Shown here in pieces: positions 21,931 through 26,847 of a stretch of DNA of 50,189 bases (positions within the stretch are counted from its first letter, which is position 1; each line of letters begins with the position of its first letter). The position numbers and the translations under genes were made by a program. Below the pieces are notes generated by a model. The model was not told the origin of the DNA and ran no database searches. It saw nothing but the letters and a program-made list of their open reading frames with translations. This DNA is from Candidatus Paracaedibacter acanthamoebae (GTDB lineage: Bacteria > Pseudomonadota > Alphaproteobacteria > Paracaedibacterales > Paracaedibacteraceae), in the NCBI RefSeq assembly GCF_000742835.1, contig NZ_CP008941.1:1707501-1757689 (forward strand), given 5' to 3'.

Positions 21931-21948
21931 ATAGACTTCTTTCGAAAC

Positions 21949-22775
21949 TCATAGTAGGAGCTCAAAATTATAAATTCCTGCTATTAAGTTGAACCTTAAA
22001 GTGAAGCGTTTGCGTCTATTTCTATACCGATCAGCAATAATTTTAAAGCGCTTGATAACGCCAATGACATTTTCATTAAGTACGCGCCCACTGGCTAATT
22101 GACGGTTGTCCTTTTTATCCTGTTTTGTTAAAGGATTCTTTTTTGTTTTCTTCTTAGGCAGCTTTGATTTAGCATGAATTTTTTGAATCCCTTGATATCC
22201 TGTATCGGTCAAAATGCTTGTTTCAGGATGAACCCGTGTTTTTGATTCTTTAAACAAGCGAAAATCATGGCGTTTACCGTTAGAGAAAGCTGTACAAATA
22301 ATCTTCTTACTCTTTTTATCCACGACTAACTGACTTTTCAGAGTATGCCTTTTCTTTTTACCGGAGTAAAAATACTTTTGCTTTTTTTAGGTCTCTCAAT
22401 GGGACTTTCGGTTGCATCAACAAGCACCATTTCATACTTAACGTCACTTTTCAAAAGCTCTTTGCGACCAGGTAAAGCAAAGTCTGGATGTTTAATCAAC
22501 GAATCTTCAATCCATCTCACTGCCTTATAGGCTGTGCTTTCACTTACTCCATAACTCTGGCTTATGTGAAAATACGTCCGATATTCTTTTAAATATTCCA
22601 ACGTCATTAACAACATATCTTCTATACAAAGCTTAGTGTTTCTGCCGCCTTTCTTTTTCTTCAGTTGAGTTGCTTCTCTTAAAATTTCTATCATCCTATT
22701 AAAGGTTGTACGCTTGATACCTGTTAGGCGCCGAAATTTCTCTTTATCTAATATTTCTACTGCTTTGAGTTTCAT
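21949..22775 (-). CDS. IS5-family DDE transposase made by a -1 frameshift
   Basis: Two overlapping frames. The first (22775 to 22338, 145 residues) has a helix-turn-helix region (MIEILREATQLK.. SQSYGVSESTAYKAV) and the first catalytic Asp in VDATESPIERP. The second (ending at 21949) has the Asp in LTDTGYQG and the Glu in NENVIGVIKRFK. Neither alone is a full DDE enzyme. A -1 shift at A7 (22382-22388) joins them into YSGKKKRHTLKSQLVVD, the conserved block expected there, with no stop between. The protein ends inside the left inverted repeat. It is probably functional if slippage occurs. Confidence 0.85.
22381..22391 (-). other. Slip site CCTAAAAAAAG in transposase
   Basis: On the minus strand the codons are CCT-AAA-AAA-AGC in the first frame. 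Moving back one base gives AAG-CAA-AAG and enters the second transposase frame. A run of seven A is a common site for -1 ribosomal or RNA-polymerase slippage in IS elements. The identical 11-mer occurs at the frame break at 26636-26646. Confidence 0.65.
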
Positions 22776-23099
22776 AATGCTCCCTTAAAAGCATCACAAT
22801 ACATAAAATTTATCTAATATTCGAGTTTCGAAAGAAGTCTATTGTTTAAAAGGTCAGATTTTCTCTTTTGGTTTTATTGGACTAAGATTAATCATTAAGG
22901 CAACAAATAAATAATACATAATATTTTATTTTTAAATAAAATATTTAATTATTGCTGTTTCATATTAAAAGTAGGAAATTTTATTTAAAATTCAACTACC
23001 ATTATTTATACGTATTAGTCCAGAATTACTCAGGTGGTAAATGTAACTTTAATTAAATAGTTAATTAAATTTATTTAAACTACATAAAGGAGAATAGCT

Positions 23100-24230
23100 A
23101 TGAAAATTTCAATTAAACTTTTTAAGTTCCTATCAATGTATTTAACCAGTATTTTCTTTTTATTCTCATTATTCTCAGAATCAGCTAGTAGCAATCAATT
23201 AATTATGGCAATAGAAGATGGGAATGGAGATGTTAACGTTACAAGGTCTGCAGATGGAGAAAGCTGGGAACCTCCTTTTTCTACTCCTAGCACTCGGAAA
23301 ACTAACCTGCCTGTAAGCCTAGTTTGTACAGGGGGGGGCAATATCCTTATGGGAAGAGTAGATCAGCAGAGTAATAATATTTATTATACACCAGCTAATT
23401 TATGTGGTGAGAAGCGCACTTGGTCGAATTCTGATTTTTCCCCTAATAACACTTGGAAAACTACACTGCCTGTAAGCCTAGCTTTTCATAATAATAAGCT
23501 CTATATGGGAATGGTAGAGGAGGGCGGGAATATTGCCGTTGCCTGTGAGAGGGCGCCACAGTGGAGATTAGCTCATCTCCCTATAAGACCCTACTTCACA
23601 AAAACAGAGGGTTTTTTGATCCCTGATAGCCACCCTGATAGCCATGGCATCACTTGGAAGTATATTTACAAGATGGAGATTTTCCTGCCTTTCCCAAAGA
23701 CGTTTGTAAGCCTAGCTTCTCATACTGATGGTTATCTCTATTTGGCAATGGTAGATAATTTTGGAAGAATTGATTTGTCAAGGTCTGCAGATGGAGAAAA
23801 CTGGAAAGATTCTTATAGTCCTCATGTAGTACCTCAAGTAGTACCTCTAGGAGGAGAGGATGAGAGAAGGTGGTGGAGCTATAAAAAGGCTGTAAGCCTA
23901 GCTTCTCATAAGGAAAATCTCTATATGGCAATGGTAGATAATACGGTTGTTGGAAGAATTAGTTTGTCAAGGTCTGCAGATGGAAAAATCTGGTCAGTTC
24001 CTTCTTATATAAATTGGTGGACTCCCCATGCTGTAAGCCTAGTTTCTTATTCTTATCTTTATCGGGATCCAAATACTGGAAGTAATACTATTATAAGGTA
24101 TCTCTATATGGGAATAGTAGATGCTAAGGGAGACATTCATTTAGCAAAGTCTGCAGATGGAGAAACCTGGGAAATTCGTAATCTAAATAGGAATACAAGA
24201 CAGCCTGTAACTTTGCTAAATTGCTATTAA
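23100..24230 (+). CDS. Secreted six-unit propeller-like repeat protein
   Basis: 376 residues with a signal peptide (MKISIKLFKFLSMYLTSIFFLFSLFSESA). The mature part is six repeats of about 55 residues with the pattern (L)Y(M)AMVD..G.I.LSRSADGE.W....... AVSLASH. The S-A-D-G-x-x-W box appears at about 50, 231, 291 and 350, resembling a shortened Asp-box (BNR) turn; units 2 and 3 have degenerate forms. This predicts a six-bladed beta-propeller or lectin-like fold. I see no catalytic set, so sialidase activity should not be assumed. The DNA is AT-rich, with repeats still alike at base level (TCTGCAGATGGA four times), and it sits between two IS elements. AAAGGAG lies 7 nt before the ATG. The 259 bp upstream are very AT-rich and hold nothing else that I recognise. 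Confidence 0.8.
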   Translation: MKISIKLFKFLSMYLTSIFFLFSLFSESASSNQLIMAIEDGNGDVNVTRSADGESWEPPFSTPSTRKTNLPVSLVCTGGGNILMGRVDQQSNNIYYTPANLCGEKRTWSNSDFSPNNTWKTTLPVSLAFHNNKLYMGMVEEGGNIAVACERAPQWRLAHLPIRPYFTKTEGFLIPDSHPDSHGITWKYIYKMEIFLPFPKTFVSLASHTDGYLYLAMVDNFGRIDLSRSADGENWKDSYSPHVVPQVVPLGGEDERRWWSYKKAVSLASHKENLYMAMVDNTVVGRISLSRSADGKIWSVPSYINWWTPHAVSLVSYSYLYRDPNTGSNTIIRYLYMGIVDAKGDIHLAKSADGETWEIRNLNRNTRQPVTLLNCY

Positions 24231-24282
24231 TAGAGATTGAAATACAAAACTGCTTGTAAGCTTGATGCAACATTAATGAATT

Positions 24283-25291
24283 AACGTGAGTTCGACATAA
24301 GGATATGAGAAATACTTAAATAGTCTTGATAATTTAGTAGGGAGCCATAAAATCTTATTAAATTCTGAATAAAATAAGAGGCTTCATGGTTCCCTTAGAA
24401 GAGATATTCTGCTTAATTGATGTTTTTTGCAAGCAATTTGAAGAAACACAAAAATCTAAACTGTTGCCTAATTTTTCAAGGAAAAGAATTCGATTATGCT
24501 CTCTTTCAATTTCAGAGATCATGACGATCATGGTTTTGTTTCATCTTAGCCATTATAGAACCATTATAGAACGTTTAAGGATTTTTATAGGGACTGTCTT
24601 TCAGTAAATTTTAAAAGCGCATTTCCAAAATTAGTCAGTTACAATAGATTTGTTGAGTTAATGCCTTATGCAGCTATACCTTTGCTTGTCTTATCTTTCA
24701 GGCTGACTGGTAAAACAACAGGCAAATATTATATCGATTCAACAAAACTTCATGTCTGTGACAATTTAAGGATTCATAGCCATAAGGTATTTAAAGATTT
24801 AGCAAAACGGGGAAAGACTTCGACAGGATGGTTTTTCGGATTCAAGTTGCATCTTATCATCAATGATAAAGGAGAACTTATGACTTTTAGAATTACATCA
24901 GGAAATGCAGATGATCGTGCTGTCGTGAGAAAAATGACTGCTGGCCTGAAAGGATGGTTGTTTAGCGATAAGGGTTATATCAGCACAAAGTTCACTGAAG
25001 AACTTAAAAATAGAGGGTTAGAGCTTATTACGAAAGTAAAGAAAAACATGGAAAAAAAGATTATCAGTCCAATCAAAAACCTCTGGCTTAAAAAGAGAAG
25101 TGTTATAGAATCTGCTATAGATCAAATGAAAGCAATTCTCCACATTCAGCATACTCGGCATAGGTCTCCTGACAATTTTCTGGTTAATCTTCTTGCTGGT
25201 ATTTTAAGCTATATCCTTAAGCCAAAAAAACCTACAGTTTCTTTTGCTAAGGCAATCTCTGGAATGTCTCTGCTTATGTCGAACTGACGTT
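24283..25291. mobile_element. IS982-family insertion sequence with target duplication
   Basis: 1009 bp with ends AACGTGAGTTCGACATAAG (24283) and, inverted, AACGTCAGTTCGACATAAG (ending 25291), one mismatch in 19. The 8-bp direct repeat AATGAATT flanks both ends (24275-24282 and 25292-25299); because the bases next to it are alike, 6-10 bp are possible. The length and transposase fit IS982. Clean ends and an intact target duplication suggest a fairly recent insertion. Confidence 0.9.
24386..25287 (+). pseudogene. IS982 transposase inactivated by 11-bp duplication
   Basis: The N-terminal part (24386 on, VFCKQFEE.. LCSLSISEIMTIMVLFHLSHYRT) and the C-terminal part (YYIDSTKLHVC, RGKTSTGWFFGFKLHLI, FSDKGYIS, KRSVIESAIDQMK) are in different frames. 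The cause is visible: CATTATAGAAC is tandemly duplicated at 24551-24572. Deleting one copy restores HYRTFKDFYRDCLSVNFKSAFPKLVSYNRFVELMPY, the expected IS982 sequence. DDE residues (YIDST, SDKGY, VIESAID) are intact, so precise loss of 11 bp would revive it. Confidence 0.9.
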
Positions 25292-25327
25292 AATGAATTA
25301 AGCTTATTCATAGGAAAGGTGAGATAA

Positions 25328-25514
25328 GAGGAGAAAATTCTAGTTTATTTTCTCCTCACTACTCCATAGACCAAGTGGGTGACCCCCCCCACTTAGTCTA
25401 TAAGGCTCTCAAGAGCCTTTTGCTGCCCTCTTAGAGCAGTGGATGTTCATCTTTTCATTTGAGTAAGGTTTTTGATGTCTGAAGTATGTCCAAAATAAGG
25501 CTTTAAGGCCTTAT
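25328..25514. other. Cluster of four hairpins in a gene-free stretch
   Basis: The 690 bp between the IS982 element and the next gene have no credible coding frame. Four stems lie close together: GAGGAGAAAA/TTTTCTCCTC (25328-25357), a 14-bp near-perfect stem at 25366-25401, AAGGCTCT/AGAGCCTT followed by T (25402-25421, terminator-like), and ATAAGGC/GCCTTAT (25495-25514). They may be stacked terminators, a small RNA or remnants of another element. Confidence 0.45.
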
Positions 25515-25735
25515 GAGGCAGAGTTTTAAAGAAAAGAGGTCAAAAGAGTGATTGTTTTAAAGCATGTTTCTTTTCAGAACATGTAAATTTTACTCAAAAA
25601 AAATTTCATGCAAAAGCCCTGCTCTACTCCTATGGACGATTGCAGTGTTACTCCGGTGCTCGAATTCTCATGGGACTTTAATGAGACACTGCGTATCGGT
25701 GCTCCGTTTGCTCCTCGCACTCCTCTCGTAAAAGT

Positions 25736-25753
25736 GAGTTTCGAAAGAAGTCT
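25736..25753. repeat. Solo copy of the IS5-family end
   Basis: GAGTTTCGAAAGAAGTCT is identical to the right end of the IS at 22823-22840 and is also followed by TA-compatible sequence. No transposase lies beside it, and the sequence just inside does not match the IS. It may be the far end of a 3.8-kb composite unit starting at 21933, or the relic of a second copy. Confidence 0.8.
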
Positions 25754-25984
25754 AATAAAGCCTCTCTGAATTGAGAGAAAAGCAGTCCCCTGTTTAAATT
25801 ATTTAAAAGTTTTCTCCCCACCTTTCTTAAGAATATTTAATAAATATTAAGATTTAGGGATGCTACTTAACTAAAAAAAAATACCTCTGCAACAATTAAA
25901 ATTGTAGTTATCTGCTGACCCATAAAAAGTGATCAGTTTCTGCTTATATTGTTTACCCATTTTGTTCCCTGTAGGAGGTCTTTC

Positions 25985-26662
25985 ATGCTTACTTCCCTGA
26001 AACGCATTTTATTTCTATCCAACCTTATGTCCTTTGCGGTGAATGCGTTAGAAGCTTCGCCTGCCCCTTTAAATTCTTTGGCCACCACACCAATATTGTC
26101 GGCGCCACAGCCATCCCTCTTAACTCCCCCAAACCATATCAGCGCGGACAAAAATTTAAAATTGGAAACATTGGGAAAAAAGTTAACCATAGTACAGAAC
26201 CATTTAACCCAAGAGGCTAAAAACGGCAATAGAGTCGCACAAGTCGCCTTAATTGATGCCTATCAGCATAATAAATATGGATTTGCTCTTACAGATGCTA
26301 ACCAAAAGATAATCTTAATGTTCTTGACTGAGTTTTCTAAAAACAACCCGCTGCTACGACCTATCCTTATCCGAGCCTATAAAGATGGTGATTTTGGTAT
26401 TAATTATAAAAGGCAAAAGAATGCCAGAATGGGGAAAAAGCTCGCCCTTCAGTATATAGACTCTCCTAATATTGGGGATTTAATTATAGAAGCGATGACG
26501 GAAGAGCGGCTTACCTTTAAGCCGCACCTCAATTGTTTACCGCTTATAATGAAACTGGCATTTGAATTTAAAAATAAAAATGCGCAAGTGTTCTTATTAA
26601 GATGTTATATAACTGGCAAATATGGTGCAGACTTTCCTAAAAAAAGTTATTCCGCGATATAA
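25985..26662 (+). CDS. Exported helical-repeat protein, main frame
   Basis: 225 residues, family uncertain. I start it at ATG 25985, 6 nt after TAGGAGG. The N-terminus (LTSLKRILFLSNLMSFAVNALEA) looks like a signal peptide. A Pro/Ser-rich linker follows, then short helical repeats such as EAKNGNRVAQVALIDAYQHNKYG and NPLLRPILIRAYKDGDFG. Their spacing and the A-x-x-x-L-x-x-(A)-Y pattern recall SEL1/TPR repeats. The frame ends abruptly with SYSAI after a run of seven A, while the -1 frame continues the same repeat pattern, so this is probably only part of the intended protein. It lies just outside the IS island. Confidence 0.65.
   Translation: MLTSLKRILFLSNLMSFAVNALEASPAPLNSLATTPILSAPQPSLLTPPNHISADKNLKLETLGKKLTIVQNHLTQEAKNGNRVAQVALIDAYQHNKYGFALTDANQKIILMFLTEFSKNNPLLRPILIRAYKDGDFGINYKRQKNARMGKKLALQYIDSPNIGDLIIEAMTEERLTFKPHLNCLPLIMKLAFEFKNKNAQVFLLRCYITGKYGADFPKKSYSAI
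26636..26646 (+). other. Slip site CCTAAAAAAAG joining two frames
   Basis: The codons CCT-AAA-AAA-AGT lead to an early stop at 26660-26662. A -1 shift within the seven A (26639-26645) gives AAG-TTA-TTC-CGC (KLFRDIMEKLE) and enters the following frame without a stop. The same 11-mer with the same phase occurs in the IS5-family transposase 4.2 kb away. Confidence 0.55.
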
Positions 26663-26847
26663 TGGAAAAATTGGAACCCTATGCTGATATAAATTCCGAT
26701 TTAGCTACGTTAATTATCTCCATTTGGGAACAGAATCTTTTAGGAATAAAAGACAAGAAAGAGCTTCAAGTAGAGCAATTTAGAATTAAAAATCGTTTTA
26801 TCCAAAAGTCTTTTAAAGAATATCAAAGAGAAAATTTCTTCTATTAG
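26662..26847 (+). CDS. Continuation of the helical-repeat protein in -1 frame
   Basis: 61 residues from the ATG overlapping the previous stop (TAATG), or about 66 counted from the slip site. The residues KLFRDIMEKLEPYADINSDLATLIISIWEQ continue the helical pattern and have no start-like features of their own. I read it as the C-terminus of the preceding protein, reached by slippage or separated by a one-base indel. Translational coupling as a separate small protein is the alternative. Confidence 0.5.
   Translation: MEKLEPYADINSDLATLIISIWEQNLLGIKDKKELQVEQFRIKNRFIQKSFKEYQRENFFY

Follow-up and report, generated by a model that had tools for sequence, protein, structure and literature searches.

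Does a bacterial chromosomal gene exploit the same slippery sequence by which a transposon next to it changes reading frame? The question is raised by a 50,189-nucleotide stretch of the Candidatus Paracaedibacter acanthamoebae genome (hereafter the window; positions 1707501-1757689 of a contig of 2,470,036 bases, one of the two that make up the genome). The 11-mer CCTAAAAAAAG lies in it at 22381-22391 on the minus strand, within the transposase gene of an IS5-family insertion sequence (IS), and at 26636-26646 on the plus strand, within the gene of a helical exported protein whose best structural matches, though weak, are Sel1-repeat proteins (hereafter the Sel1-like gene); there is no further copy within the window. 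The zero-frame codons at the two sites are CCT-AAA-AAA-AGC and CCT-AAA-AAA-AGT, and at both a long open stretch follows in the -1 frame. The initial annotation, which had drawn attention to this common sequence and phase, was correct on both. Our answer to the question is nonetheless that the window very probably holds a kept recoding site in the transposase and, in the Sel1-like gene, a one-base difference in the length of an A-run, with CCTAAAAAAAG common to the two by chance.

The insertion sequence occupies 21932-22841 on the minus strand, is bounded by perfect 19-bp inverted ends at 21932-21950 and 22823-22841 (an exact 19-mer in both orientations) and is the single full-length copy in the genome. 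Its transposase is divided between two minus-strand frames. The upstream frame (22338-22775) carries the helix-turn-helix (HTH) part (PF13613, E 5e-18; positions 2-135 of the 285 in NF033581), and the downstream -1 frame (21949-22383) carries the DDE part (PF13359, E 1e-21; NF033581 positions 142-284). Taken alone, the halves score 89 and 129 bits, both under the NF033581 cut-off of 140, and they are consecutive parts of that one model.

Is the change of frame at this point peculiar to the window copy? At 1e-15, relatives of the element occur in 7 of 287 related genomes, the own genome included; among 398 genomes sampled from the phylum, only the own copy matched at 1e-20, and 171 records of a plasmid collection matched, 8 of which we examined. 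Thirteen IS loci entered a comparison of the pivot, and 12 were resolved (the pattern was unmatched in L032); L026 and L027, in which no pivot was seen, were kept out. With the window copy included, 8 of the 12 make a -1 switch at the same point. The remaining loci comprise L030, which switches by +1, L033 and L034, which are in one frame, and L029, which has an internal deletion. The run at the pivot is A8 in L022-L025, the four nearest relatives read, and in L031, and it is A7 in L028 and L035. Several public annotations of the relatives give coding regions whose lengths are not multiples of three, which we took as joined frames. Since the relatives shift frame at this very point, on a run of A7-A8, the transposase site represents a known kind of device. 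The slippage site proposed in the initial annotation for the transposase accordingly holds up, and we conclude from these comparisons that the minus-strand A7 is a frame-switch site of the known IS5 kind. Like other IS5-family transposases with an A-run frameshift (NF033581; L033 is annotated as IS702 family), the window copy encodes its HTH and DDE parts in separate frames that meet at an A-run, with the same pivot; unlike L022-L025, with their A8, it has A7 preceded by T.

The unswitched product would be an N-terminal DNA-binding protein, while a fraction of products would switch to the -1 frame and yield the full DDE transposase. Both the switching in the window copy and its mechanism are inferred: either transcript slippage or ribosome slippage might serve. 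Mixed shift direction among relatives is a mark of transcript slippage according to PMC3711429. RNA folding downstream of the IS site gave z values of -1.91 and -1.32, and downstream of the break in the Sel1-like gene unremarkable values of -0.84 and -0.76. We rejected a downstream RNA stem as a slippage stimulator, the values being unconvincing at either site.

The zero frame of the Sel1-like gene (25985-26662, plus strand) covers positions 1-259 of a 322-position profile and ends in TAA. The conserved -1 continuation (26644-26847, plus strand) covers positions 250-318 (E 4.9e-19), and comparison with orthologues places the gene one base out of register at the A7 run (26639-26645). We labelled the own genome G000 and the other four genomes of the same genus G001-G004. 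All four have an orthologue, and in each it is one open frame through the site. The nearest, G002, has A6 there, in frame; the other three have no A-run, and A7 is found in none. In G002 the orthologue also has the same neighbours as in the window. By eye, the spacing of residues across the break fits the orthologues when the continuation is read in the -1 frame. G005 and G006, from the family's other genus, gave no match to the exported protein in a profile search, and a weak match in G024 (E 0.006, one stop) was dropped before counting. Slip site and broken frame are thus kept together in none of the four orthologues. The proposal that a chromosomal gene exploits slippage here therefore finds no backing in the alignment of homologues: close relatives are uninterrupted, with the A-run absent or one base shorter, which is the pattern that the initial annotation itself had named as refuting its proposal.

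Might the common 11-mer itself still betray a common function? Two copies in 50 kb are locally unusual (the shuffle mean was 0.15, and 2 of 100 shuffles reached two). Across the whole genome, however, we counted 7 copies against 9 of the reversed control pattern, and we rejected CCTAAAAAAAG as an enriched genome-wide slip signal. All seven copies were classed by eye. Two are at frame breaks, namely those in the transposase and the Sel1-like gene. L002 has the 11-mer in the same phase within an intact frame, where a -1 step meets a stop after three codons; L003 has it within an intact frame in a different phase; and three (L001, L004 and L007) are outside long frames. Because the sequence is not enriched and also occurs in the same phase in the intact frame of L002, we conclude that two unrelated things, a transposon device and a one-base change in a gene, share it by chance. 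A slip sequence that recurs in an adjacent transposon is hence no evidence for its use by a chromosomal gene, and a tempting link is removed.

What would the break cost the protein? Mapped on the structural model of the G002 orthologue (mean predicted local distance difference test score 72.9), the break coincides with the beginning of helix 220-233, so that a short form would be without helices 220-233, 238-249 and 258-275. We would expect the main product of the window gene to be this form, lacking the last three confidently predicted helices. The best Foldseek matches of the same model are Sel1-repeat proteins (6ork, 6ok3, 6deh and 8sxq, probability 0.98-1.00). The matches are weak: within the top eight Foldseek rows the Sel1 entries have E-values of 0.0069-0.034, none at E <= 0.001, with low TM-scores (0.24-0.42); Pfam Sel1 matched none of the four orthologues and gave no support for Sel1 in the window gene. 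A sequence search against solved structures returned nothing useful (best E 0.22). Compared with G002, the gene has dN (nonsynonymous divergence) values of 0.42 and 0.26, and the eight neighbours measured have 0.017-0.138. The gene (25985-26847) is thus evolving much faster than those neighbours, as would suit a protein that faces the host or can be dispensed with.

How, then, did the frame come to be broken? The one-base difference at the A-run, seen in this genome only, would be either a genuine indel of recent date, in a gene that evolves fast, or an assembly miscall of the homopolymer; this agrees with the plain alternative of an indel or assembly error that the initial annotation had kept in view. 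After the break, changes relative to G002 fall 19/9/32 by codon position, so that coding constraint is kept; because the stretch is still under such constraint, the break is either recent or not real. A miscall only, with the Sel1-like gene intact in the cell, forms a subset of this explanation and is a reasonable possibility, if not a probable one. The break is at an A-run, no signs of decay follow it, and 454 was among the sequencing methods of the genome set that includes Ca. Paracaedibacter acanthamoebae; but PMC4198247 also gives Illumina and PacBio for that set, and nine other runs of A7 or T7 and longer, in 7 of the 32 window genes supported by orthologues, are all in frame. (That list of 32 has no orthologue rows for the opening 4 kb of the window or for its final 2.5 kb.) With only 1 of the 32 listed genes broken, poor assembly overall is not supported.

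That the Sel1-like gene is the sole broken one among the 32 speaks against a miscall. Further observations count against our explanation as a whole. Over 67 codons the continuation is 63% identical to G002, compared with 48% before the break. It is intact and aligns to the orthologues without gaps, as selection for a long form also predicts. According to PMC3711429, frameshift product in E. coli cassettes amounted to 63% with 11 A's, 40% with 9 and 10% with 7, and T_AAA_AAA is among the consensus frameshift heptamers. Perhaps, then, the Sel1-like A7 has the same function as the IS site, and a short and a long exported protein are both made? Seven A's were able to slip in those cassettes, the sequence and phase are identical to the IS site, the coding continuation is conserved, and the genus seemingly uses longer A-runs in another exported protein (see below). 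Accidental rescue by slippage on A-runs has been described for endosymbiont genes of Buchnera and Blochmannia (PMC5009743), which resemble our case in being frameshifted chromosomal genes at an A-run in a host-associated bacterium; the runs there are described as long, whereas ours is an A7 in a window of 42% GC. However, the site is not conserved in the orthologues, and the downstream folding is unremarkable. Moreover, the phase T_AAA_AAA falls outside the heptamers X_XXZ_ZZN, with three identical X, given in PMC4066793, which ranks A_AAA last of six active tetramers. PMC1088944 restricts its analysis to runs of 9 and allows that some bacteria may also show slippage on runs shorter than this. 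On balance we regard productive slippage in the Sel1-like gene as improbable.

Another route to both halves of the protein would be a stop and restart at 26660-26664 (plus strand), where the zero-frame stop overlaps an ATG of the -1 frame (TAATG), giving two polypeptides. The junction is present, and a methionine stands at that place in none of the four orthologues. By eye, however, no clear ribosome-binding site precedes TAATG, and the second piece would be merely the last helices of one repeat fold, judging from the orthologue model, and would start without a secretion signal; we consider this very unlikely. We therefore retain the explanation of a one-base length difference. Under it some full-length Sel1-like product is possible, and any such product would be made at a low level by accidental slippage; selection for it has no support in the sequences compared here.

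The Sel1-like gene lies beside a 3.8-kb block (21932-25754) that separates it from ychF. The block opens with the IS5 element and is closed by a third copy of the element's inverted end (25736-25754). In G002 ychF and the Sel1-like gene are just 290 bp apart, and the block looks like an insertion comprising more than the IS itself. Within it, 23100-24230 encodes an exported 376-residue protein with internal repeats (by eye) and no Pfam family above cut-off. At 24380-25290 is a DDE transposase gene in two frames, with an apparent short tandem duplication near 24550-24580 (by eye); this element is probably inactive.

The initial annotation had also raised the broader idea that the organism exploits A-run slippage. 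For the Sel1-like gene this idea fails, but a different gene outside the window lends it indirect support. A survey of A9 runs gave 39 places, representing 37 distinct runs; the 36 runs outside the window were examined in 35 stretches, and the window run at 25873-25881 was left out. By open-frame geometry, 8 of the 36 pass through an open frame, 3 are at a possible frame break and 25 are neither; one of the runs meeting neither threshold (L075) proved on reading to be in an open frame. One of the three at a possible frame break, L051, belongs to an exported-protein gene at G000:C1:59767-61928 (L096:1300-3461; relatives L097, L098, L099 and L100), which is present in the five genomes of the genus and in no other of the 42 searched in the order. 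In all five, the N-terminal frame overlaps a tail frame by 25-86 bases and stops within that overlap, an A8-A10 run lies there (shuffles of each gene put the chance of this at 0.0005-0.018 per genome) and the tail frame has a hydrophobic stretch at its end. None of the first 26 to 56 codons of the tail frame is ATG, GTG or TTG. The N-terminal part of the protein has a hydrophobic signal-like stretch, and Pfam gave no match above cut-off in any part.

The five genomes do not switch at the same run. In G001, G002 and G004 the switch is at the second run (A10, +1), the first run, also A10, being in frame; in the own genome (A9) and G003 (A8) it is at the first run (-1), and the second is in frame. 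The breaks in the own genome and G003 could be miscalls, because each hangs on one run length; those common to the second run in the other three genomes are firmer. In the tail, 40 of 79 aligned residues are identical between the own genome and G002, and 44 of 117 between G001 and G004; changes by codon position are 21/26/31 (weakly coding-like) and 48/41/68 in the same pairs. The alignment of the G003 and own tails stopped short of the hydrophobic end.

The simplest reading of these frames is that slippage at A8-A10 would produce anchored and unanchored forms of the exported protein. In its rival, phase variation, a change of run length in the DNA would switch the gene; five out-of-frame states would then arise by chance with a probability of (2/3)^5, about 0.13. 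This gene is the strongest case that we met for exploited A-run slippage or phase variation, and the Sel1-like A7 gene would at best be a very young, weak case of slippage use. We lean slightly towards the view that in this genus A-run slippage may serve regularly as a means of expressing a chromosomal exported protein, giving soluble and membrane-anchored forms. The Ebola virus glycoprotein gene, in which slippage gives soluble and transmembrane forms (PMC5009743), would work alike only in that a hydrophobic C-terminal segment is reached solely after a frame change at an A-run; the gene described here is bacterial, has no homology to it, and its slippage is putative. We found no report of slippage in Odyssella in the literature searched. 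If the view is right, a chromosomal gene of amoeba-associated symbionts chooses between a soluble and an anchored product by slippage, and it offers a test case for separating transcript slippage from phase variation.

The other two A9 runs at a possible frame break in the own genome also deserve mention. At G000:C1:923931 (L063, minus strand) the G002 orthologue is one uninterrupted 827-residue frame, and the own copy is in three pieces, with one break at the A9; because no long A-run lies at its second lesion, the gene seems to be decaying. At G000:C1:644617 (L058, a further candidate for slippage) one long open frame ends at the run and another begins in a different frame; relatives match only the later part, which by eye is lipase-like.

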